The notes under the pieces were generated by a model that was not told the DNA's origin, did no database searches, and saw only the letters and a list, made by a program, of their open reading frames with translations. A stretch of DNA of 11,936 nucleotides from assembly GCA_937905915.1 (NCBI GenBank), contig CALCVR010000043.1, forward strand, positions 1 to 11,936. The letters run 5' to 3'. A program made the translations under genes and the position numbers. This DNA comes from an uncultured Eubacteriaceae bacterium (lineage in GTDB: Bacteria > Bacillota > Clostridia > Oscillospirales > Acutalibacteraceae). Shown here one piece after another: positions 1 to 11,896 of this stretch (positions within the stretch are counted from its first letter, which is position 1; every line of letters starts with the position of its first letter).

Positions 1-3000
1 CCGGCCGGGATGGAAACCTCCTGTTCAAAGGCGACATTACCGGGATTGATAACACCTTTTATGGTGCCGGTGACGTCTTTGTCGCTGCTGTTGTGCAGAT
101 CGGCAGAGACGCGGATGTCGGCATAATCGGTGTTGGGCAGGGGCAGATCGGTGGCCACAAAGGGGGCGTCTACCGACACGGCCTTGCGGGTGGACAACGA
201 CACCTCCTTAACAATGCCGATGTTTCGGCCCGGGATGGCGGGGATCCAATCCCAGGAACCGGAGCTGATGAAATGGGGGGACCATCTGGTCTGATCCTCA
301 TCCTTGCCGGTGGGGAAGATATGGACGTTGATGGCAATGGTATTCACTTGGCCGGGGATCAAATACTGAGACACGTCCAATTCCTCGCTCTTGAAGGCGC
401 CCATGAGATTGGCCACAGGTTGGCCGTTGATGTAAACGTCTGATAGCCAGTTGACGCCGTCAATATTGAGGATCATGCGCTGGCCGGCGTAGTCGGTGGG
501 CAGATCGATATCCTTGCGATACCAGTAATCCACATTGTAGTAGTCTTGATCCAGCTTATCCATGTTGTCGGAATAGTAGGGGTCGTCGATGAGGCCGGCC
601 TCATAGTAGCTGGTCAGCACCGTGCCGGGGACTACGGCGTCAATCCACCTGTCGTTTTCTACGTCAAAGCCGGGGCTGGACACGGCGGCAGGGGTATCGT
701 CGATGTCAGGCACGCGGGCCAGTTTCCACCCGTCGTTTAAGGAGATTTCCTCCAGGACGGCGGTATCGTTTTGAGTGTCGGGGACGACAAGAGCGGAGCT
801 GCCGTAGACCTCAAGCTCCGAGATGGAGAAGTTGTCCCCAGCACCTGCCACCGGTACTAGACGGATATACCGGGCGGTCATATGCTGGACGTTGATGTCC
901 CGGGTACCGTCCTGGATGGCGTAGTGGGTGGGTGTGATGGGGGAGAGGTTGACGGTTTCTATGCCGCCGCGGCCGTTCTGGGTAGAATAGGCGTCCACCC
1001 AAGTGAGGCTGTCGTCGGATACTTGGATTTTATAGGAGGAAGCGAAGTTGTCGCCCCACTGGATCTTGACGCTGCCGACGCGCTGCACGCTGCCCAGATC
1101 CAATCCGATCCATTGATCCGATTTGCCGTCGGAGGTCCAAACGGTAGCGTCGTCGTTGTCCACGGCCCCGGCGGCATCGGCAGAGCTGGCCGAAACATAG
1201 GCGTCCCTGGACATATCGTAGGGGGCATATACTTCCATTTCGGATACAATGTCCCCATTGCCGGTCTTGGTGGTGCCGTAGACCCGGACGTACCGTGCTT
1301 CCGTGGGGGTGAAGAAGATGTCGTCCACACCGCCAGGGGCGTTGAAGATATCATAGACATTGTCCCAATTCTGGCCGTCCCGGGAGACCTGGATGTTGTA
1401 AGATCGGGCATAGGATTCACCCCAATGGAGGATGACCCGGTCGATGGTAGTGAGCTGTCCTAAATCGACGCTCAGCCACTGGAGGTCGGAATTTTCCGCC
1501 TGCCAAATGGTACTCTGGTCGCCATCGACAGCGTATTCGGGATGGTCGCCGCTGGAGGCCGTGACATCTTTGCCAATGGCCAGATTGATTCCCTTGCCCA
1601 CATCGTCAAAGATGATGCCTGAGAGGGCGTCCAAAGCGTTGTGGAGGTCTAAGGCCGCTTCCATCTTCTGCTCGATGGTGGTATTCTCATCCGCAGCGCA
1701 CTGCTGGGCGGTGTCGAGGGCCGAGAGGAAGGCTTCCACATCCTCGGCGGGATAACGGGTTAAGTCGTTTGCCTGCTGGAAGGACTGGGCCTGGGCCAAG
1801 GTGTCATCCAGGTCATAGTACTTCATATCGGTGGCGTATACCTGGAATTCAAAGATAGAGGCCTTGTTCATGGTGCCCTGGGTAGGTTGGTCGATGCTCA
1901 ACCGGACGTACCGGGCCAGGGTAGGATCGAAGTTTTCATCGTTTTGGAAACTGGCATTATATCGCTTGTCCACTACGGTGGTCCAATTCTGGTTGTCCAG
2001 GCTCACTTCAATCTTGAAGGCTCTGGTATTGGAGTAATTGCGGGCGTCCTTGTCGCTATAGTTGACGATGGCCAGGCCGCCGTGCTTGAGGATATATCGC
2101 CCCACTACGGTGGGCTCCTCTAAATCGATGGTCAGTTGCTTGACCGATTCTTCCCCGGTGGATTCCCACTTGGTGAAGTCGTCGCCGTCAATGGCGTATT
2201 GGGCGTTGTCGCTGCTGGTGGAGGTCACCGGTTTGCCTTGGCTCACCAGATTGGTATAGGGCTGTTCCTCCACCGTCTGGAGGGAATTGAGATCCAGGCG
2301 GAAGAAACGTTCCCGATAATGCTCGTTGGTCTCGGTGCCGTGCCAATTTGGATTTTCGTCCTTGTTGGAATCCCAGACATAGCAATCGTAGGAGATGAGC
2401 AGTTCCCCGTCCTTGGAGAGCTGGGGATGGGCTACGGGATTGTAGGTGACATACCAAGCGTCGGGATTGTCAAATTCGTATAATTCGTTCTGATACTGCT
2501 CCATCTCGGGAGCCACGTAACAGATGGTGGGATTCTCAAAGGGGCCCCAGGGATTGTCGGCCAGCATATACCCGATCTTTTCCGACAAAGCGCCGTCGGT
2601 GTAGGTCATCAGGTACTTGCCTTTGTAGATGCCGCTGTTTAAGTAGGTCACCGATACTTTAGAGGAAAGGAGCATCCGGGGCGTGATGATCTTGGTATCG
2701 TCAAGATTGTCTTTGGCGCCGACCTTCCATCCTTCTTCGGTGTAGAACTCCCACAGATCGGGGTTCTCGATGTTTTCCTTGGTGGTGCGGGCCACGACGG
2801 CACACCGCTCGGCAAAGACGCCGTTGGTAGCGCCGTACAGGTAGACGTAGCCGTCGGCTTTGTCAGCGTCCACGCCGCTTTCCACGGTGTTGTCCAGGAT
2901 GCCGGTGGCGAAGATGCGGGTATCGCTGAACAGGTCGTTTTTAAAACCAAGCCATTCATAGTCCGCCCAATCCACCTGATAGTCCTCGCCGATGGGGAAT

Positions 3001-4271
3001 TTCACCATGGAGACGCCGGTGGTTTTAAATTCACCACCGCCCATAGCGTCCTCGTGGCCGGACAGGACATACAGATTGTCGCCGATGGCGATACCGTCCT
3101 GAATCCAGAACATCTCAGGCACCACATTGGAAGTACCGCCTTCATCGTTCTCGGTGGGGGGATTGCGCAGTTTGGATTTGTCGCCGCCCTCTCCGAAGAC
3201 AAATTCTAGCTTGGATTTATCTGGGCTTACGCCGTCAAACTCGGCGAAGACGTGGTTGGGCATTTGCAGCCAGTTGAGCAGCAGGCTTTGGGATAGATCC
3301 TTAAAAGAGGAGACATAGCTGTCGCTGAACATCCACACAGTAGGAGTGTTCTCGTCGCCGCTGCCGATGGCGTCCACGCCGTTGAGAGGCACCGATACCA
3401 TACCGTCGCCGGCGCGCCAATCGTCTTCATCGGGATTGTCCAGATTGTTAAACAGCTCATTCCAATCCTCTGCCGGCTCGGCCTTGAGGGCGTCGGGGAA
3501 GAGAGTGCGATTGTCCTCCAAGCCCTTGACGGCCGCGTCCAGAGCATTGTACACTACGTCGATGTCGGCTTGCTCCGGCGGCACAGTCATGTCAAGAACC
3601 TCTTTGGCGTCCTTCAAAGCGTTTTTGTAGTTGTTGACAGTGCTCTTTTTAAACTGGGAGGGGATGGTATCCACATATTTGGGTTCCACCTGATCCACCA
3701 GTTCTTCTAACGCACCGGTGTCCCCCGGCACAGTGGTAATGCCGGAATACAGTTCCCACTCAAAGATACTCAGCCAGAACTGGGTCTCAGGGAAGTAGAT
3801 GCGCAGATATCGGGTGCTGATTGGATCAAAGGATAAAGATACAATTTTGCTGGTCTTTTCCCCGTCGGTAAAGGAATCCTTTTTCACGAGGGTGTTCCAC
3901 TGGGATCCGTCGTCAGAATACTGGATCTCAAATTTACCGTCCAATGTGGGATTCGTCACATAACCCTTGGTCATGGATTCAAAGTAAACGGTGGTCTTGC
4001 TGACGATTTGTTCTTCAGCAAAGGCGACTTGGATCCAACGTCCGGCTTCACCGTTGCCGTCCTGGGCCCAACGGCTGGACATATCGCCGTCAAAAGCCAG
4101 CTCCGGGCCCCGCCCACTCTCGCTGGAATTGGCCGAAAAGCTATTGCCGGGCAGAAGTGATAGATTTTCTCCCGTATCGTCCTCGGCCAGGGTAATGGGC
4201 GACGATACTGCGGCCGATACTACCATCATGACCGACAGCAAAATGGCCAGCAATCGTTTTTTGATGTTCAC
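1..4271 (-). CDS. Large secreted multidomain glycoside hydrolase (CBM32 x4, propeller, GH2), C-terminus outside window
   Basis: The frame stays open from a GTG at 4271 to the left edge, giving at least 1,423 residues with no stop. AGGAG at 4281-4285, nine bases upstream, and an in-frame TGA at 4278-4280 fix the start. Approximate domain order: signal peptide 1-29 (KKR, hydrophobic core, cleavage near ITLA/ED); discoidin/CBM32-like module 40-172; FIVAR-like helical linker 180-252; DUF4185/DUF5005-like beta-propeller 265-665 (WRAGDGMVSVPLNG, MFSDSYV, YNPVAHPQLS); CBM32-like 670-814; FIVAR-like 817-884; CBM32-like 894-1019 and 1020-1164; GH2 sugar-binding domain from about 1170 (VPGTVLTSYYEAGLIDDPYY, DVYING, DWIPAIPGRNIGI); start of the GH2 Ig-like domain from about 1370. 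The VPGTVL and DWxPxxPxxNxGI motifs recall exo-beta-glucosaminidase and mannosidase branches of GH2. The catalytic barrel lies outside the window, so activity is inferred. The protein is presumably extracellular and acts on glycans; substrate unknown. Confidence 0.85.
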   Translation of the reverse strand, partial: MNIKKRLLAILLSVMMVVSAAVSSPITLAEDDTGENLSLLPGNSFSANSSESGRGPELAFDGDMSSRWAQDGNGEAGRWIQVAFAEEQIVSKTTVYFESMTKGYVTNPTLDGKFEIQYSDDGSQWNTLVKKDSFTDGEKTSKIVSLSFDPISTRYLRIYFPETQFWLSIFEWELYSGITTVPGDTGALEELVDQVEPKYVDTIPSQFKKSTVNNYKNALKDAKEVLDMTVPPEQADIDVVYNALDAAVKGLEDNRTLFPDALKAEPAEDWNELFNNLDNPDEDDWRAGDGMVSVPLNGVDAIGSGDENTPTVWMFSDSYVSSFKDLSQSLLLNWLQMPNHVFAEFDGVSPDKSKLEFVFGEGGDKSKLRNPPTENDEGGTSNVVPEMFWIQDGIAIGDNLYVLSGHEDAMGGGEFKTTGVSMVKFPIGEDYQVDWADYEWLGFKNDLFSDTRIFATGILDNTVESGVDADKADGYVYLYGATNGVFAERCAVVARTTKENIENPDLWEFYTEEGWKVGAKDNLDDTKIITPRMLLSSKVSVTYLNSGIYKGKYLMTYTDGALSEKIGYMLADNPWGPFENPTICYVAPEMEQYQNELYEFDNPDAWYVTYNPVAHPQLSKDGELLISYDCYVWDSNKDENPNWHGTETNEHYRERFFRLDLNSLQTVEEQPYTNLVSQGKPVTSTSSDNAQYAIDGDDFTKWESTGEESVKQLTIDLEEPTVVGRYILKHGGLAIVNYSDKDARNYSNTRAFKIEVSLDNQNWTTVVDKRYNASFQNDENFDPTLARYVRLSIDQPTQGTMNKASIFEFQVYATDMKYYDLDDTLAQAQSFQQANDLTRYPAEDVEAFLSALDTAQQCAADENTTIEQKMEAALDLHNALDALSGIIFDDVGKGINLAIGKDVTASSGDHPEYAVDGDQSTIWQAENSDLQWLSVDLGQLTTIDRVILHWGESYARSYNIQVSRDGQNWDNVYDIFNAPGGVDDIFFTPTEARYVRVYGTTKTGNGDIVSEMEVYAPYDMSRDAYVSASSADAAGAVDNDDATVWTSDGKSDQWIGLDLGSVQRVGSVKIQWGDNFASSYKIQVSDDSLTWVDAYSTQNGRGGIETVNLSPITPTHYAIQDGTRDINVQHMTARYIRLVPVAGAGDNFSISELEVYGSSALVVPDTQNDTAVLEEISLNDGWKLARVPDIDDTPAAVSSPGFDVENDRWIDAVVPGTVLTSYYEAGLIDDPYYSDNMDKLDQDYYNVDYWYRKDIDLPTDYAGQRMILNIDGVNWLSDVYINGQPVANLMGAFKSEELDVSQYLIPGQVNTIAINVHIFPTGKDEDQTRWSPHFISSGSWDWIPAIPGRNIGIVKEVSLSTRKAVSVDAPFVATDLPLPNTDYADIRVSADLHNSSDKDVTGTIKGVINPGNVAFEQEVSIPA

Positions 4272-4753: not shown

Positions 4754-5311
4754 TTGAACGGCTCAAAAATAAAACATCTCGTGTTATGTGCCCTGTTTGT
4801 AGCCCTTATCGCGACCGGGGCTTTTCTTAAGATCCCCGTCCCGATAGTGCCCTTTACGTTGCAGTATCTGTTTACCATGCTGGCAGGGCTTCTTTTAGGC
4901 CCTAAATGGGGCTTTCTCTCGGTTTGCGTTTACCTCCTTCTAGGATTGGTGGGACTTCCCGTCTTTGCCCAAGGGGGCGGAATCGGGTATGTACTCCAAC
5001 CCAGTTTCGGCTATCTTATCGGGTTTGCCATAGGAGCATGGATCACCGGCGCCATAGCCGGCCAAAAAAGCAATCCGAGCTACCGACGTCTGTTAGCTGC
5101 CAACTTTACGGGGCTGGGCGTTGTATACCTTTTAGGGATGGCCTACTATGCTCTCATCAGCACTTTCTATCTGCACAATCCCATCGGGCTATGGCCGCTC
5201 TTTTTGTATTGTTTTGTGCTGGCCGTGCCAGGGGATATCCTGTTGTGCCTTGTGGGGGCTGTTCTCGGCAAACGCCTGATTCCACTTCTTAAAAGCGAAA
5301 GGATGGTATAA
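4754..5311 (+). CDS. bioY: BioY, biotin ECF transporter substrate-binding component
   Basis: BioY is the membrane S-component of the energy-coupling factor transporter that captures biotin; it normally works with a shared EcfA/EcfA'/EcfT module, not seen here. The 185-residue protein is of normal length, mostly hydrophobic with about six membrane segments, and carries family signatures: KIPVPIVPFTLQ (about 26-37), GLPVFAQGGGIGY (67-79) and PSFGYLIGF (83-91). The start is a TTG at 4754, eight bases after GAGGG (4741-4745); the nearby ATG at 4747 is in another frame. It is the first gene of the operon and ends four bases before bioB. The BirA operator upstream indicates repression by biotin. 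Import of a biotin precursor rather than biotin is an open possibility because the operon lacks early pathway genes. Confidence 0.95.
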   Translation: MNGSKIKHLVLCALFVALIATGAFLKIPVPIVPFTLQYLFTMLAGLLLGPKWGFLSVCVYLLLGLVGLPVFAQGGGIGYVLQPSFGYLIGFAIGAWITGAIAGQKSNPSYRRLLAANFTGLGVVYLLGMAYYALISTFYLHNPIGLWPLFLYCFVLAVPGDILLCLVGAVLGKRLIPLLKSERMV

Positions 5312-5315
5312 AAGA

Positions 5316-6281
5316 ATGGATGTAAAAATCTTAGGACACGACATCCGGGCAGGCAAGAAAATTGGCAAAGAAGAGGCCCTCCAACTCTACTATCAACCGT
5401 TAGAGGAGCTGTGTCGGGAAGCCGACGCCATTCGTAGACACTATTGCTCTAATTTGTTTGATCTGTGTGCCATCGTCAGCGGTAAAAGTGGACGGTGTTG
5501 GGAGGATTGCAAATTCTGCGCCCAATCGTGTCACAATCCCACCCATGTAGCGCAGTATCCTTTGTTACCGGCGGTTGATATCGTGGCGGAGGCAAAGAAA
5601 AATTGGAGGGAAGGCATCGGTCGGTATTCCATTGTCACGTCGGGAAAAAGGTTGTCCGACGGGGAAGTGGACGCCCTATGTGAGACCATCCGGGAAATCC
5701 TCAGGGAAACCGGACTTTCGGTATGCGTCTCCTTGGGCCTGCTGGACGAGGTACAATATAATAAACTTAAGGAAGCAGGTGTCAGCCGGGTGCACAATAA
5801 TCTGGAAACCTCCCGCAGTTATTTTCCTCACATCTGTACCACCCACACTTTTGACGATAAAATAAAATCTATTCGGTGCGCTCAGTCGGCAGGGCTTGAA
5901 GTGTGCAGCGGTGGCATCATGGGCCTTGGAGAATCCCCGGAGGATCGGATTGATCTAGCCTTTACCCTGCGGGGACTGGGCATCAAAAGCATTCCCATTA
6001 ATATGCTTAACCCCATTCCAGGCACGCCCCTTGCCCGCAACCGGGTTTTGACCGAGGAGGATATGCGTCGTATTTCAGCCGTCTACCGTTTTATCTTGCC
6101 AGACGCCTTTGTGCGCCTCGCTGGGGGACGGGGGCTATTGCCCGACCAAGGGAGAGGATGCTTTATGTCTGGAGCCAATGCGGCTATCTCCGGCGATATG
6201 CTGACGACGGCAGGCATTACGGTACAAACCGACCTACAGCTTTTGCGCCGGCTCGGTTATGAAGTGAGGGAACAGGTATGA
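5316..6281 (+). CDS. bioB: Biotin synthase, radical SAM enzyme (candidate Type II)
   Basis: It inserts sulfur into dethiobiotin to form biotin. The 321-residue protein has the radical-SAM motif C61-WED-C65-KF-C68 for the [4Fe-4S] cluster, the substrate region HNNLETS (160-166), CSGGIMGLGES (197-207) and VRLAGGR (266-272). Compared with E. coli BioB from memory, auxiliary-cluster ligands C128, C188 and R260 correspond to C137, C197 and R267, but the C97 position is serine (S105 in RYSIVTSG). Extra cysteines occur near the N-terminus (C44 and C51, in HYC-N6-C context) and at C72. This pattern fits the anaerobe-type BioB recently described with a different auxiliary cluster, an inference needing alignment. 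Second gene of the operon; its last four bases overlap bioD. Confidence 0.95.
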   Translation: MDVKILGHDIRAGKKIGKEEALQLYYQPLEELCREADAIRRHYCSNLFDLCAIVSGKSGRCWEDCKFCAQSCHNPTHVAQYPLLPAVDIVAEAKKNWREGIGRYSIVTSGKRLSDGEVDALCETIREILRETGLSVCVSLGLLDEVQYNKLKEAGVSRVHNNLETSRSYFPHICTTHTFDDKIKSIRCAQSAGLEVCSGGIMGLGESPEDRIDLAFTLRGLGIKSIPINMLNPIPGTPLARNRVLTEEDMRRISAVYRFILPDAFVRLAGGRGLLPDQGRGCFMSGANAAISGDMLTTAGITVQTDLQLLRRLGYEVREQV

Positions 6282-6985
6282 GTAAAAACCTCTTTGTTTT
6301 GGGCACCGGCACTGACGTAGGAAAAACTTATATCACCGGCCTAATTCTCAAAAAACTGCGGGAAAATGGGTTAAGCGCCGGCTATTACAAAGCGGCCATG
6401 AGCGGCAATCGACGGGATTCCAATGGTCGCCTCATCCCTGGGGATGCCCTGCATGTCAAGCAAAGATCAGGCATCGGACAGCCTGTGAAAGACATGTGTC
6501 CCTTTGTATATGAGCAGACGGTATCTCCTCATTTGGCCTCCCGGACCGAGGGGAATCCCGTCCGGATGGACCGCGTCCGAAGAGGGTTTGAAGAGATATG
6601 CGCTCAGTACGACTATGTCACCATGGAGGGATCGGGTGGTATTCTCTGTCCACTCCGCCTGGAGGACGGACAGAGCCTGTGGCTTGCCGATGTTGTCAAA
6701 GCCCTGGGGCTGGGATGTCTACTGGTGGCCGACGCCGGACTAGGAACCATCAACCAGGTGGGACTGACCTGCTTTTATCTCAAAACCCAGGGCATTCCAC
6801 TTAGAGGCATGATTTTCAACCGTTTTGATCCCGGTGACCTCATGCATCGGGACAATGTAGAAGTGTGTAGACAGTTGACCGGTGTGCCGGTGATAACCTG
6901 TGTCAAGGAAGGAGACACCCAATTGGACGTCCTGCTGGGACAGCTTCAACAGCTTTATCAGGAGGGGAGGGATGGATTATCGTGA
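6278..6985 (+). CDS. bioD: Dethiobiotin synthetase
   Basis: BioD carboxylates DAPA with CO2 and ATP and closes the ureido ring to give dethiobiotin. The 235-residue protein starts with a textbook P-loop, GTGTDVGKT (9-17, with K16 and T17), has the second conserved lysine in YYK (K38), TVSPHLAS (81-88) and MEGSGG (116-121) around the nucleotide and substrate site. Length and motif order are normal for the family. Its ATG overlaps the bioB stop by four bases and its TGA overlaps the bioA GTG start by four bases, implying translational coupling through the operon. Confidence 0.96.
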   Translation: MSKNLFVLGTGTDVGKTYITGLILKKLRENGLSAGYYKAAMSGNRRDSNGRLIPGDALHVKQRSGIGQPVKDMCPFVYEQTVSPHLASRTEGNPVRMDRVRRGFEEICAQYDYVTMEGSGGILCPLRLEDGQSLWLADVVKALGLGCLLVADAGLGTINQVGLTCFYLKTQGIPLRGMIFNRFDPGDLMHRDNVEVCRQLTGVPVITCVKEGDTQLDVLLGQLQQLYQEGRDGLS

Positions 6986-8184
6986 TCTGGTACCCGTATG
7001 AACAGATGAAAACCATGAAAACGCCTTATAAGATCTTGGACGCCCAAGGAGTATATCTTTACACAGACCATCAAACCCTTATTGATTCGGTATCCTCCTG
7101 GTGGAGCGTTATCCACGGCTATAAGCATCCGGAACTCAATAAGGCTATTGTGTCGCAGGTGGAAAAATTCTCTCACGTGATGCTGGGGGGACTGACCCAT
7201 GAACCGGTACAGAAGCTGTCGGATAAACTGGGGGCATGGCTTCCCGGGACGCTTAATTACTGTTTTTACTCCGATTCGGGAAGCGTAGCTGTGGAAGTGG
7301 CCCTAAAAATGGCCCTCCAGTACTACATGAACCGGGGAGAGCATCGACGCACCATGATCCTGGCTTTGGAGCACGCCTATCACGGGGATACCTTTAAAAC
7401 TATGGAGGTGGGCGACGACGAGGATTATCACTTTGTGCTCAAGGCCTACGGCCCCAGCAAACAAGTGGTACATATTCCCACCCGCCTGGACGCGCTGGAA
7501 CAGGCTTTTTTGCAGTACCATGACCGCCTCAATTGTTTTATCGTGGAACCCTTGTTACAAGGGGCCGGCGGTATGAGGATGTACGATCTTTCTTTCCTGC
7601 AAAAGGCCAGGGAGCTGTGTAACCAATACGGGGTTCTGCTCATCTTCGACGAGGTGGCCACGGGATTCGGCCGAACCGGAAATCGGTTTGTAGCCGACCT
7701 GGTAACCCCCGATATCCTGGTACTGGGCAAGGCGTTGACCGGCGGATACATTGGACATGCTGTCACGGGGGCCAACCAGACGGTGTACGAAGGCTTCTAC
7801 GACGATCTTCCCCAGCATGCCTTTATGCACGGCCCCACCTTTATGGGCAACGCCTTGGCGTGCAGCGTAGCACTCAAATCCATAGAACTGTTTGAATCCC
7901 AGAACTACATGGAGAAAATCCGCCGCATTGAGGACATCACCCGCCGGGAGATGGAAGGAGTATCCCACCCCAGCATCCGGGAAGTCCGGATCATGGGGGG
8001 ATGCGTCTGTGTGGAAGTGACGCATCCATCGGTGTTAGAGGGATACCAGCAGTTCGCCTATGAGAGAGGGGTATTCAGCAGGCCATTTTTAAACTATCTT
8101 TATGCAATGGTACCTTACGTCATCCAGGAGGATCAGCTGGTCCAGGTGCTGGACACTATGAAGCAATGGTTTACCCAGCTGTGA
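6982..8184 (+). CDS. bioA: Adenosylmethionine-8-amino-7-oxononanoate aminotransferase (DAPA synthase)
   Basis: This PLP-dependent class III aminotransferase turns KAPA into DAPA. The 400-residue sequence opens with IWYPYEQMK, the usual BioA start, which supports the GTG at 6982 over an internal ATG. It has SSWWSVIHGY (about 38-47), AYHGDT (132-137; Y133 and D136), IFDEVATGFGRTG (about 221-233) and the PLP-binding lysine K250 in LVLGKALTGG. R367 in FSRPFLNYLY matches the conserved C-terminal arginine seen in E. coli BioA. The amino donor (SAM or lysine) cannot be decided here. It is the last gene of the operon, overlapping bioD by four bases, and is followed by a strong terminator. Confidence 0.95.
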   Translation: MIWYPYEQMKTMKTPYKILDAQGVYLYTDHQTLIDSVSSWWSVIHGYKHPELNKAIVSQVEKFSHVMLGGLTHEPVQKLSDKLGAWLPGTLNYCFYSDSGSVAVEVALKMALQYYMNRGEHRRTMILALEHAYHGDTFKTMEVGDDEDYHFVLKAYGPSKQVVHIPTRLDALEQAFLQYHDRLNCFIVEPLLQGAGGMRMYDLSFLQKARELCNQYGVLLIFDEVATGFGRTGNRFVADLVTPDILVLGKALTGGYIGHAVTGANQTVYEGFYDDLPQHAFMHGPTFMGNALACSVALKSIELFESQNYMEKIRRIEDITRREMEGVSHPSIREVRIMGGCVCVEVTHPSVLEGYQQFAYERGVFSRPFLNYLYAMVPYVIQEDQLVQVLDTMKQWFTQL

Positions 8185-8215
8185 TCTTTAGATAAGATGG
8201 TCTTGTAAACAGGAT

Positions 8216-8258
8216 AAAAAAACGCCGGATTGCTTGAATGCTGTAATCCGGCGTTTTT
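8216..8258 (+). terminator. Intrinsic terminator after bioA
   Basis: AACGCCGGATT (8221-8231) pairs perfectly with AATCCGGCGTT (8245-8255) across a 13-base loop. An A-run precedes the stem (from 8216) and a five-T run (8254-8258) ends it, so the stem can extend by A-T pairs. It lies about 30 bases after the bioA stop and separates the biotin operon from the MerR operon. Confidence 0.92.
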
Positions 8259-8318
8259 GCAGTATTTCTATATTTTTTATAATTGCCGACTGTTCATAAA
8301 TTAATTTAAAAGAAGAAA

Positions 8319-8344: not shown

Positions 8345-8375
8345 TTGACTTAGAGCGCGCTCCAAGTGCTACCAT
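8345..8375 (+). promoter_or_regulatory. MerR-type promoter and operator
   Basis: TTGACT (8345-8350) and TACCAT (8370-8375) are separated by 19 bases, longer than the 17-bp optimum and typical of promoters that MerR proteins activate by untwisting the DNA. The spacer carries the 18-bp dyad CTTAGAGCGCGCTCCAAG (8349-8366), symmetric except for one pair. It closely resembles the CTTGACTTAGAG-type operators of NmlR/AdhR-class regulators. The adjacent downstream gene is a MerR regulator, so autoregulation of the whole operon is likely. Transcription should start near 8382. Confidence 0.88.
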
Positions 8376-8413
8376 AAAAACTGCCGTTAGGACAGAAAGG
8401 CGGTGATGCGATT

Positions 8414-8794
8414 TTGACCATTAAAGAAGTCAGCGAAAAGTACAACATTTCTCAAGATACGCTGCGTTATTACGAACGGGTTGGGATGATCCCACCGGTA
8501 TCCCGTACGGCCGGAGGCATTCGAGATTACCAACCGGACGATCTAGGATGGGTTGAGCTGGCCATCTGCATGAGAAGCGCGGGACTTCCGATTGAAGCGA
8601 TGATCGAATATGTCAAGCTTTATCAAATGGGGGACAGCACCTTTGCCGCTAGGCTTCAGCTTTTACAGGAACAAAGGGAGAACCTACTAGAGCAGCGAAG
8701 ACAGATTGACAAAACTTTGGAACGGCTCAATTATAAAATTTCACGGTATCAGATTGCCGTAGACACAGGAAAATTAACATGGGAGGAAACATAA
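8414..8794 (+). CDS. MerR-family transcriptional regulator, NmlR/AdhR-like
   Basis: The 126-residue protein has an N-terminal winged helix (TIKEVSEKYNISQDTLRYYE, 2-21; IPPVSRTAGGIRDYQPDDL, 26-44) and a C-terminal dimerisation coiled coil (about 78-118, rich in Q, E, R and L). It has no metal-binding C-terminal cysteine cluster. One cysteine, C52 in AICMRSAGLPIEAMIEYV, falls at the position of the reactive cysteine reported in AdhR/NmlR-class regulators that sense aldehydes or other electrophiles. The start is a TTG at 8414 behind GGCGGTGAT (8399-8407 region, one mismatch to the ideal Shine-Dalgarno); nearby GTG and ATG codons are out of frame. It is the first gene of its operon, three bases before the DXS-like gene, and probably controls the promoter at 8345-8375. 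Confidence 0.9.
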   Translation: MTIKEVSEKYNISQDTLRYYERVGMIPPVSRTAGGIRDYQPDDLGWVELAICMRSAGLPIEAMIEYVKLYQMGDSTFAARLQLLQEQRENLLEQRRQIDKTLERLNYKISRYQIAVDTGKLTWEET

Positions 8795-8797
8795 TTT

Positions 8798-10552
8798 ATG
8801 ATTTTAGAAGCTATTCGTCAGCCAGCTGATGTAAAGAAATTGGACGAGCAACAATTGAACGATTTGGCTCAAGAGATGCGTGAGGCACTCCTGGTAAGGC
8901 TCAGCAAACACGGCGGCCACTTTGGTCCAAACCTTGGAATGGTGGAGGCCACCATCGCCCTACATTATGTATTTGATTCTCCTAAAGACAAGCTGGTTTT
9001 TGACGTATCTCATCAGTCCTATCCTCACAAGATGCTGACGGGAAGGAAGGATGCCTATCTCTATGAAGAGCATTACGACGATGTGTCTGGTTACAGCAAT
9101 CCTCACGAAAGCGAGCACGATCATTTTATTATCGGGCACACTTCAACCTCAGTCAGCCTAGCTTGTGGACTGGCCAAAGCTAGGGATGTAAAAGGGGAAA
9201 CCGGCAACGTTATCGCTGTGATCGGGGATGGTTCCCTAAGCGGCGGCGAGGCATTGGAGGGGCTGGACTTTGCATCGGAACTACACAGCAATTTGATTGT
9301 GGTGGTCAATGACAACGATATGTCCATTGCCGAGAATCACGGCGGCCTTTACGGCAACTTAAAACTGTTGCGTGAGACAAACGGCCAAGCGGAATGCAAT
9401 TTGTTCCGGGCAATGGGTTTGGATTATCTTTATGTCCACGCAGGCAATGATATTTCCTCCTTGATCACTGCTTTCAAAAAGGTAAAGGATTGTACCTCGC
9501 CGGTAGTGGTGCATATCAACACCCAAAAGGGAAAAGGATATGCTCCAGCCGAACAGCACAAGGAAAACTGGCATTACTGCGGCCCCTTTGATTTGGCCAC
9601 CGGCAATGCTGTAGGCGGGTTTGAGGAAGAGGACTATTCTACCGTAACCGCCCAGTACCTTCTGGCTAAAATGAAGGAAGATCCTACCGTAGTGGCTATC
9701 ACTTCGGGAACGCCAGCGGTCTTAGGATTCACAGAGGAGAAGAGAAAAGAAGCGGGCAGTCAGTTTGTGGATGTGGGGATCGCTGAAGAGACGGCAGTAG
9801 CTTTGGCCTCCGGTATGGCGGTAAATGGAGCCAAACCGGTGTATGGTGTATACAGTACCTTTATTCAAAGGACCTTTGACCAACTTTCTCAGGATCTGTG
9901 CATCAACAATAGCCCCGCTACCATCGTGACCTTTGCCGGGTCGGTGTACGGCATGAACGATGTGACCCATTTAGGAATTTACGATATCCCCATGATGGCC
10001 AATATCCCCAACCTGGTTTATCTGGCCCCCACCACGAAGGAAGAATACCTGGCGATGTTGGAGTGGAGCCTGAAGCAGAAAGAACATCCGGTGGCAATTC
10101 GCCTTCCCGGCGGTGCCATGGTTTCGGACGGCAAAACTATCGACAAGGATTTTGGCAATCTCAATCGGTATGAAGTGACCCAAAAGGGGAGCAAAGTGGC
10201 TGTTATCGGCCTCGGTACCTTTTATAATTTAGGCTGTAAAGCGGCCCAGGTTATGGAACAAAAGCTTGGGATCCATTCTACTGTCATCAATCCCTACTAT
10301 ATCACCGGCCTGGACGAGGAATTGCTACAGGAGTTAAAGAAGGAACATACCGTTGTCATTACCTTAGAGGACGGCATCTTAGACGGCGGATTCGGGGAAA
10401 AGATCGCTCGCTTTTATGGAGATTCCCAGGTAAAGGTGCTAAACTTCGGCTTAAAGAAAGAATTCCTGGATCGTTATGATGTGCAAGAGGTGCTTGAGCA
10501 AAATCACTTGACTGTGCAACAGATTGTGGACGATGTAGCAAAATACCTGTAA
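8798..10552 (+). CDS. Divergent short DXS-like thiamine-diphosphate enzyme
   Basis: The 584-residue protein has the DXS order: N-terminal ThDP domain, pyrimidine domain (about 278-440) and transketolase C domain (about 460-580). Seen motifs include HGGHFGPNLG (H41), DVSHQSYPHKMLTGR (69-83), GDGSLSGG (143-150), NDNDMSIAEN (171-180), KGKGYAPAE (244-252), H259, DVGIAEE (325-331; E330), VYSTFIQR (351-358) and AIRLPGG (433-439). Canonical DXS joins pyruvate and glyceraldehyde 3-phosphate into DXP. This copy is about 36 residues short, lacks roughly 30 residues of the flexible segment after SxxEN, replaces GPxDGHD by YVHAGND, IAEQH by IAEET and ADGPTHQG by MNDVTHLG. A changed acceptor substrate is therefore plausible. 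Annotation pipelines would probably call it dxs. GGAGG at 8782-8786 serves its ATG; it is co-transcribed with the MerR gene. Confidence 0.85.
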   Translation: MILEAIRQPADVKKLDEQQLNDLAQEMREALLVRLSKHGGHFGPNLGMVEATIALHYVFDSPKDKLVFDVSHQSYPHKMLTGRKDAYLYEEHYDDVSGYSNPHESEHDHFIIGHTSTSVSLACGLAKARDVKGETGNVIAVIGDGSLSGGEALEGLDFASELHSNLIVVVNDNDMSIAENHGGLYGNLKLLRETNGQAECNLFRAMGLDYLYVHAGNDISSLITAFKKVKDCTSPVVVHINTQKGKGYAPAEQHKENWHYCGPFDLATGNAVGGFEEEDYSTVTAQYLLAKMKEDPTVVAITSGTPAVLGFTEEKRKEAGSQFVDVGIAEETAVALASGMAVNGAKPVYGVYSTFIQRTFDQLSQDLCINNSPATIVTFAGSVYGMNDVTHLGIYDIPMMANIPNLVYLAPTTKEEYLAMLEWSLKQKEHPVAIRLPGGAMVSDGKTIDKDFGNLNRYEVTQKGSKVAVIGLGTFYNLGCKAAQVMEQKLGIHSTVINPYYITGLDEELLQELKKEHTVVITLEDGILDGGFGEKIARFYGDSQVKVLNFGLKKEFLDRYDVQEVLEQNHLTVQQIVDDVAKYL

Positions 10553-10588
10553 AGGGGTTGCGCTTTAATAGTAGATAGGAGGGATTGA

Positions 10589-11314
10589 ATGACGGAAAAG
10601 CGGCCATATATCATCTGTCATATGGTGCAGTCCATCGACGGAAAAGTCACAGGCGATTTTTTAAGCAGTAACCAATGTGAAGCAGCAACCGAGTCGTATT
10701 ATCAAATCAACCGTGATTTTCACGCCGATGCTTTTGCCTGTGGCCGGGTGACTATGGAAGGCAGTTTCACAGGGGGATGGTATCCTGACCTTGTAGAATT
10801 TGAGGGTCAAACCATCACCCGGGAAGATTATGTAGCCAATCCGCAGGCAGGTTATTTTGCCGTGGCCTTTGACCGGCACGGGAGATTGGGATGGAAAACC
10901 GATAAAATTATTGACGACGATCCCGGCTATGGAAATGCCCATATTATCGAAGTGCTGTGTGAGGACGTACCGGATGCTTATCTTTTCTATTTAAAAAGAA
11001 TTGGCATCTCTTATATTTTTGCCGGAAGAAAAGAAATGGATCTATCCATGGCGCTCCATAAATTAAAGGTACTATTTAGCATTGACACTTTGTTGTTGGA
11101 GGGGGGAAGCATCCTAAACGGTTCCTTCCAGCGCGAGCACTTTATAGACGAATTAAGTCTTGTGCTAGCGCCTATTGCCGCCGCCCCGGAGGATAAACCC
11201 CTGTTTATGGATGGCCCCATGACCGGATATGCTTTAACCGATGCAAAGCCCCTAGGATATTCAGCCGTATGGCTTCGGTATAAAAAGGAGTCCATGCCCC
11301 AATCGGGCATCTGA
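10589..11314 (+). CDS. RibD C-terminal domain / dihydrofolate-reductase-like oxidoreductase
   Basis: The 241-residue protein is a stand-alone member of the RibD_C family, a dihydrofolate-reductase-like NAD(P)H-binding fold. Supporting motifs are an N-terminal strand with MVQSIDGKV (12-20), CGRVTMEG (51-58) and the diagnostic LLLEGGSILNGSF (168-180) followed by HFIDELSLVLAPI (184-196). It lacks the zinc deaminase domain of bifunctional RibD and is unlikely to be the housekeeping riboflavin reductase. AGGAGGG at 10577-10583 is an excellent ribosome binding site for the ATG. It follows the DXS-like gene by 36 bases with no terminator seen and precedes the flavin reductase by 21 bases. Its substrate is unknown; members of this family reduce varied carbonyl or ribosyl compounds. 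Confidence 0.82.
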   Translation: MTEKRPYIICHMVQSIDGKVTGDFLSSNQCEAATESYYQINRDFHADAFACGRVTMEGSFTGGWYPDLVEFEGQTITREDYVANPQAGYFAVAFDRHGRLGWKTDKIIDDDPGYGNAHIIEVLCEDVPDAYLFYLKRIGISYIFAGRKEMDLSMALHKLKVLFSIDTLLLEGGSILNGSFQREHFIDELSLVLAPIAAAPEDKPLFMDGPMTGYALTDAKPLGYSAVWLRYKKESMPQSGI

Positions 11315-11335
11315 TAGATCAAAGGAGAGAGCAAC

Positions 11336-11896
11336 ATGAGAAAAAATTTAGGAGCTAAGCCGTACACCTATCCGCAACCGGTGTATATCGTCGCCACCTA
11401 CGGGGAAGATGGGACTCCCGACGCCATGAATGCCGCCTGGGGTGGTATCAGCGACAACACTCAGATTTCTCTATGTCTGAGTGCAGGCCATAAGACGGTC
11501 AAAAATATCTTGGCTCGAAAGGCCTTTACCGTCAGCATGGCGGACGTCGATCATGTGATAGCTTGTGATTATATAGGCGTCGTTTCGGGAAACAACACGC
11601 CGGATAAATTTGAGAAAGCAGGATTCCATGCTACCAAGTCGGAATTTGTAGATGCTCCACTTATTGATGAACTGGCTGTGGCCGTGGAATGCAAACTGGT
11701 GAGCTACGATCAAAATACCTGCCGCCTAGTAGGGGAGATCGTCAATGTCAGCGTAGACGAAAGAGTGATGGATGAAAAGGGAAAGGTAGATGTCAATAAG
11801 GTGGCGCCTATCGCCTTTGATCCCTTTCAAAACATTTACATTAGATTAGGAGAAAAGGTAGGAAATGCCTTTCAAGATGGACTTTCCTTAAAGTAA
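11336..11896 (+). CDS. Flavin reductase family protein (flavoredoxin-like, FMN-binding)
   Basis: The 186-residue protein matches the flavin reductase-like/flavoredoxin family, FMN-binding split-barrel proteins that reduce flavin or pass electrons from NAD(P)H. Recognisable stretches are YPQPVYIVATYGEDGTPDAM (12-31), NAAWGG (32-37), GHKTVKNILARKAFTVSMAD (51-70), DYIGVVSGNNTPDKFEKAGF (78-97) and VDAPLIDE (105-112). AAGGAGAG lies just before its ATG. It is the last visible gene of the MerR operon; only 40 bases follow with no terminator visible, so the operon may continue outside the window. The family is broad and often annotated generically, so a specific electron partner cannot be assigned, though the neighbouring RibD_C protein is a candidate. 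Confidence 0.85.
   Translation: MRKNLGAKPYTYPQPVYIVATYGEDGTPDAMNAAWGGISDNTQISLCLSAGHKTVKNILARKAFTVSMADVDHVIACDYIGVVSGNNTPDKFEKAGFHATKSEFVDAPLIDELAVAVECKLVSYDQNTCRLVGEIVNVSVDERVMDEKGKVDVNKVAPIAFDPFQNIYIRLGEKVGNAFQDGLSLK

Follow-up and report, generated by a model that had tools for sequence, protein, structure and literature searches.

Why would a gene annotated as DXS stand behind a MerR-type regulator and ahead of two genes for redox proteins? The question is raised by a contig of an uncultured Eubacteriaceae bacterium, analyzed here as one stretch of 11,936 nt (hereafter the window; Table 1). The initial annotation described a MerR-type promoter followed by genes for a regulator with a cysteine at residue 52 (C52), a DXS-like ThDP enzyme, a RibD_C reductase, and a flavin reductase; the promoter and all four open reading frames (ORFs) were found. 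The top PDB sequence match of the RibD_C protein is a RibD-type pyrimidine reductase (35.5 bits), and that of the flavin reductase protein is the flavoredoxin 2d5m (121.2 bits). A biotin gene cluster lies directly upstream of the terminator and the operon, and the hairpin between these bio genes and the MerR promoter has a predicted folding energy of -24.8 kcal/mol (z -6.08; RNA fold of 8206-8262). Because this hairpin cuts off the bio genes and the gaps across the four downstream genes are 3, 36, and 21 nt, a single four-gene transcript is plausible, and the genes are presumably co-transcribed. A search of the whole window against Rfam gave no match. The window also holds a 1423-aa ORF that runs off its edge; its start resembles a signal peptide and discoidin-like stretches recur along it, and it was judged by eye to be probably a secreted carbohydrate-active protein.

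Table 1. Features of the window discussed in the text, with positions counted from its first nucleotide.
Feature	Position	Strand	Remarks
1423-aa ORF	3-4271	-	runs off the window edge
bioY-bioB-bioD-bioA	4754-8184		directly upstream of the terminator
Hairpin terminator	8218-8258	.	16-bp stem; with its A/T end, both strands show a T run
MerR-type promoter	8345-8375	+	TTGACT -35, 19-nt spacer, TACCAT -10
-35 hexamer TTGACT	8345-8350	+	sequence
-10 hexamer TACCAT	8370-8375	+	sequence
Dyad CTTAGAG-N4-CTCCAAG	8349-8366	+	inside the promoter spacer
MerR-family regulator, NmlR/AdhR-like	8414-8794	+	first of the four genes; TTG start
DXS-like ThDP enzyme, presumed carboligase	8798-10552	+	584 aa
A380 of the DXS-like enzyme	9935-9937	+	aligns with E. 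coli DXS R420 (D-GAP binding)
N387 of the DXS-like enzyme	9956-9958	+	aligns with E. coli DXS D427 (active-site network)
G438 of the DXS-like enzyme	10109-10111	+	aligns with E. coli DXS R478 (D-GAP binding)
RibD_C-domain (DHFR-like) reductase	10589-11314	+	PF01872, 8.1e-12 (Pfam)
Flavin reductase/flavoredoxin-like protein	11336-11896	+	PF01613, 1.3e-15 (Pfam)

The regulator has a MerR helix-turn-helix domain (MerR_1, 4.3e-16 in Pfam) and a conserved C52. Its best NCBIfam model is NF041849 (NmlR), which it matches at 137.3 bits; since this score is under the cut-off of 175, we term the protein NmlR-like rather than NmlR, and with this qualification the earlier assignment to the AdhR/NmlR class holds. 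A MerR-type promoter is defined by an operator dyad within a 19-nt spacer, and such a dyad lies inside the 19-nt spacer of the promoter in the window. C52 is present in all 18 regulators aligned from DXS-like loci; seven of these rows come from closely related Selenomonas, and two of the seven lie about 4 kb from the DXS-like gene. Of the 50 dereplicated loci, 11 have a co-directional MerR gene of this type upstream of the DXS-like gene and one has a divergent one, and in Fusobacterium a regulator gene also adjoins the DXS-like gene. According to a review, the NmlR clade has an absolutely conserved cysteine (Cys52 in AdhR), and a C52A variant of Bacillus subtilis AdhR gave no adhA transcript upon formaldehyde challenge (PMC4776306). 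AdhR and NmlR of Haemophilus influenzae are thus comparable to the regulator studied here in being MerR proteins with a conserved C52, and both are carbonyl-responsive according to the same review; in contrast, the AdhR targets named there are adhA, yraC, and yraA, whereas the gene next to the regulator here encodes a ThDP enzyme (PMC4776306). Taken together, the operon is very likely under NmlR-type control.

The DXS-like enzyme was compared with relatives from a scan of species genomes, which gave 56 loci (46 DXS-like, namely L001-L044, L051, and L054, and 10 canonical-type at 32-40% identity), and with further loci from plasmid-collection records. The protein in the window has an intact DXS domain order (Pfam). 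The ThDP catalytic residues H299, E370, R398, and H431 are kept in all 52 DXS-like rows of the alignment, which include 14 closely related Selenomonas rows, and H49 and H80 are kept in all 50 rows having letters there. These six residues, together with fold and domains, are common to the window enzyme and canonical DXS (E. coli Dxs, TIGR00204). The two differ in R99, R420, D427, and R478. None of the 52 DXS-like rows keeps R99 or has Arg at 420, Asp at 427, or Arg at 478, whereas among the 25 canonical rows, 15 of which come from the same genomes as DXS-like genes, R99 and R420 are kept in 25, D427 in 24, and R478 in 23 (the exceptions are L056, with N427 and H478, and L078, with K478). This canonical count leaves out the Chlamydiae rows L050, L052, and L053, which keep R420 and D427 and have N at 478. 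Among 13 further loci, R99 is lost in all 13, R420 and R478 in all 12 that are readable, and D427 in 11 of 12. For comparison, the Km of an R478A variant of E. coli DXS for D-GAP is 1400 μM (PMC11019550). Position 420 is very variable in the DXS-like clade (W, A, G, T, E, S, and others), so the acceptors may differ among members and need not be toxic aldehydes.

Some of the genes in this set look shortened or incomplete. L003 and L030 are partial in the residue alignment; L030 is an N-terminally incomplete copy with a merR start and a box just upstream. L063, from the Selenomonas plasmid pSRC1, is short (495 aa), and the gene appears in two pieces in L043, L054, and L118/L121. No long ORF was found in L040, L043, L054, and L055, and no DXS-like ORF in L006 and L040.

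Profile models and phylogeny place the enzyme beside canonical DXS as a separate group. The protein passes the TIGR00204 (dxs) cut-off narrowly, at 489.3 against 465.95 bits, whereas 16 full-length canonical-type genes score 637-843 bits on the same model. It scores 645.1 bits on NF003933, a model named DXP synthase with a cut-off of 395, and 938.9 bits over the model length, again above the cut-off, on the subfamily model NF008968 (PRK12315). It is also a full-length structural match to PDB 9KPQ at 68% identity, a Bacteroides-like member whose title names a ThDP-dependent enzyme of the DXPS-like subfamily. In an unrooted tree built by a quick method with SH-aLRT support only, a branch with an SH-aLRT of 100 divides the 52 DXS-like rows from 26 canonical rows; the branch that separates the DXS-like clade measures 1.32 changes per column. 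A weak branch (SH-aLRT 74) attaches five canonical rows from Clostridia to the DXS-like side, L050 and L056 are long-branched, and the tree leaves out L003, L030, L064, L118, ten close Selenomonas rows, and the Chlamydiae rows L052 and L053. With the D-GAP-binding residues gone and a clade of its own, the enzyme is indeed the divergent DXS-like protein proposed at the outset, and we regard it as very probably not a DXP synthase.

The promoter element of the window recurs before other DXS-like genes. Box-like elements with up to five mismatches were found before the DXS-like genes of Lachnospiraceae, Oscillospiraceae, Selenomonas, alphaproteobacterial metagenome-assembled genomes (MAGs), and Enterococcus faecium, often directly before the gene and without an adjacent merR, and the element sits at the matching place in L001, L002, L007, L019, and L116. 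Scored on 24 informative positions, of which the window's own element matches all 24, the box reaches at least 20 within 500 nt upstream at 35 of 53 DXS-like loci (window included, L030 left out), a count that is partly circular as the pattern was drawn up after the sites were known. No control reached 20, neither among 3,180 upstream sequences resampled with a first-order Markov model nor at 11 canonical dxs loci, which include L050 and L052. The remaining 18 of the 53 loci have no box within 500 nt, and three of these have one farther upstream. Among the 13 loci unused for the pattern, searched over 1,400 nt upstream without a control of their own, seven reach at least 20 and six score lower.

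The box was also sought genome-wide, allowing up to one mismatch. Among 19 genomes, which are part of those behind the 56 species-genome loci, sites were found in 15, with 38 sites in all against four for the reversed pattern; 13 of these 15 genomes have at least one site at the DXS-like operon, which is the sole genomic site in seven (G001, G002, G005, G007, G010, G014, and G015). In 13 later genomes, seven have sites (15 against one for the reversed pattern), five of these at the operon, which is the sole genomic site in G026, G236, G286, and G476. At the same stringency, no site was found in four of the 19 and six of the 13 genomes, and every site found in G009, G012, G335, and G463 lies away from the DXS-like gene. 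Other genomic sites include merR, AKR-like, and flavodoxin-like genes (types assigned by eye). Same-type boxes were also seen by eye before flavodoxin-like genes in L109 (an alphaproteobacterial MAG) and L100 (Selenomonas), hinting at a wider regulon. Two further cases may be recorded here: Selenomonas ruminantium HD4 has two DXS-like copies on different contigs (L032 and L039), both boxed (22 and 20 of 24), and the Enterococcus faecium plasmid p5_70kb (L061) has a DXS-like gene with a box of 23/24 and, three genes farther along, a gene of the flavin reductase family.

The reductase genes behave differently from the box. A reading of the four genes as a general module was rejected: in tblastn searches at 1e-8, RibD_C and flavin reductase genes accompany the DXS-like gene at only two of 65 other loci (in 64 of all 66, the sequence continues for 1 kb or more past the gene). 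These two, L001 and G026, are close relatives with DXS-like proteins 92% and 85% identical to that of the window, and the set is accordingly clade-specific. In L001, an aldo/keto reductase (AKR) gene lies between the DXS-like and RibD_C genes. Neighbors elsewhere are AKR (L010, L114), FMN reductase (L002, L005), nitroreductase (L041), flavodoxin (L007, L009, L029, L126), and flavin reductase-rubredoxin (L017). When the 66 loci were dereplicated at 90% to 50, seven tested redox types gave 17 matches in the 117 kb within 1.2 kb of the gene versus one in the 446 kb beyond, although six of these matches come from the loci that supplied the queries, which leaves 11 independent ones. At this distance tested redox genes occur in 14 of the 50 loci and in none of the other 36; flavin proteins, the commonest tested type, make up 12 of the 17 matches. 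Without dereplication, the 66 loci gave 25 matches in 154 kb versus 18 in 636 kb. Most of the far matches in this count sit in Selenomonas loci, which are rich in redox genes, so the enrichment falls to about sixfold (L043 was left out of both counts). As far as sequence comparison can tell, the deeper conserved unit is thus the MerR box with the DXS-like gene, not the four-gene set; this pairing, proposed for the window alone, extends by the box to Selenomonas, alphaproteobacterial MAGs, and Enterococcus.

The DXS-like gene is accessory. At E ≤ 1e-150, it was found in four of 150 genomes from the same family as G001, the nearest relative, in 12 of 391 genomes of the class of G001, and in six of 291 genomes of a second, overlapping draw. 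In a protein search, 7,973 of the scored candidates were relatives at E ≤ 1e-100; the best 120 are at least 77% identical, and the remainder may include canonical DXS. Two PLSDB "plasmids" with such loci, L057 (Fusobacterium, 2.1 Mb) and L111 (Listeria, 2.9 Mb), are chromosome-sized records, and plasmid location is therefore not to be inferred from them.

We favor, as somewhat better than an even proposition, a reading of the operon as a module that handles carbonyls and is induced by electrophiles. The NmlR-like protein would sit on its own 19-nt-spacer promoter, and an electrophile (an aldehyde or similar) reaching C52 would make it switch this promoter on. The DXS-like enzyme would then decarboxylate pyruvate on ThDP, as DXS does, and add the two-carbon carbanion to an unphosphorylated carbonyl instead of glyceraldehyde 3-phosphate, which would give an acyloin-type product irreversibly. 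Given an intact set of pyruvate-side catalytic residues, no recognizable D-GAP site, and NmlR-type control, such carboligation appears the most likely chemistry, and we hold it to be probable. The RibD_C and flavin reductase proteins may supply NAD(P)H- or flavin-based reduction, acting either in parallel on the same class of carbonyls or on the acyloin. Because reductase types swap between loci, parallel reduction of carbonyls or flavins fits as well as acyloin processing, and action on the acyloin itself seems unlikely. Inducer, acceptor, product, and purpose of the operon are in this scheme our inferences, and a purpose in detoxification is a possibility we would put at slightly short of even. 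The aldehyde sink suggested by the initial annotation is therefore retained in part: the sensor type, the promoter, and the loss of D-GAP residues speak for it, but a RibD_C-flavin reductase pair as the rule does not.

Three other explanations deserve consideration. The enzyme might be a second, stress-regulated DXP synthase that provides DXP for isoprenoids, thiamine, and pyridoxal if the main DXS is damaged. Pfam and NCBIfam indeed call it DXS, with scores above the TIGR00204 and NF003933 cut-offs, and its fold is that of DXS. However, not one of the 52 rows retains R99, R420, D427, or R478 while all 25 canonical rows keep R99 and R420, the clade is set apart by its long branch, and a full-length canonical-type DXS is also present in 29 of the 32 carrier genomes searched (16 of 19 and 13 of 13; residues were checked in 15 of the 29). 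On the residue loss, the tree, and these canonical-type genes, a spare DXS was rejected as the main reading and is highly improbable. Alternatively, the pyruvate-derived enamine might pass electrons to a flavin partner or O2, yielding acetate and no C-C bond. The predominance of flavodoxin, FMN reductase, and flavoredoxin among the tested neighbors would fit this, and loss of the D427/R99 network might favor acceptor-free decarboxylation. AKRs and RibD_C proteins are not electron-transfer flavoproteins, however, and they too occur as neighbors; Pfam finds no FAD-binding domain in the enzyme, and most dereplicated loci lack the tested redox genes within 1.2 kb. DXPS can take O2 as an acceptor through electron transfer (PMC11908136), and a redox role is nonetheless quite improbable.

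The enzyme could also be a dedicated modifier of host or dietary ketones such as 3-oxo bile acids, with the MerR protein sensing the ligand or the stress it causes. 9KPQ, the Bacteroides-like relative, is possibly ADS, a bile-acid enzyme, and we presume ADS to be of the same family as the enzyme of the window; ADS reportedly carries out C-C bond extension. A review that refers to Ding et al. (Cell, 2025) credits ADS of Bacteroides ovatus with making 3-acetoDCA (PMC13008668). Against such a dedicated role, DXS-like genes are also carried by Selenomonas ruminantium and by lactobacilli of milk and tofu whey, and position 420 is W in Bacteroides finegoldii but A in the window. Bile acids are not expected in the settings of these Selenomonas and lactobacilli. 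No regulation in common between ADS and the operon was seen, and the B. finegoldii member, unlike the window, has no MerR box (up to five mismatches) in the 700 nt upstream. We judge this role improbable.

Compared with known systems, the window protein belongs by its full-length matches to the DXPS-like subfamily (NF008968/9KPQ). The initial annotation knew of no characterized system with this gene set, a statement to be qualified in that the enzyme subfamily does have a member with a solved structure, 9KPQ. In the open-licence literature, we found nothing tying NmlR-type control, residue loss, and reductase neighbors together, no paper on 9KPQ, and none joining deoxyxylulose with NmlR. To our knowledge, carboligation is not among the ways in which AdhR/NmlR regulons handle carbonyls.

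These findings have consequences for annotation and for the physiology of anaerobes. Many anaerobes have a gene annotated as DXS whose product is very probably no DXP synthase, and pathway predictions for isoprenoids, thiamine, or pyridoxal that count it would therefore be wrong. For the DXS-like family, the recurrent sensor box points to a concrete inducer class and, with the enzyme, suggests a way of handling carbonyls by carboligation instead of oxidation or reduction. Tentatively, gut and rumen anaerobes may use a repurposed DXS as the carboligating arm of an electrophile response, in which an NmlR-type sensor would switch on the enzyme and reactive carbonyls would be quenched with pyruvate, through an irreversible C-C bond, alongside interchangeable reductases; the box would place such a response in two or more phyla, and the neighboring regulator gene in one more. 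If this reading is true, the bile-acid modification in Bacteroides would be one specialized use of the enzyme family.
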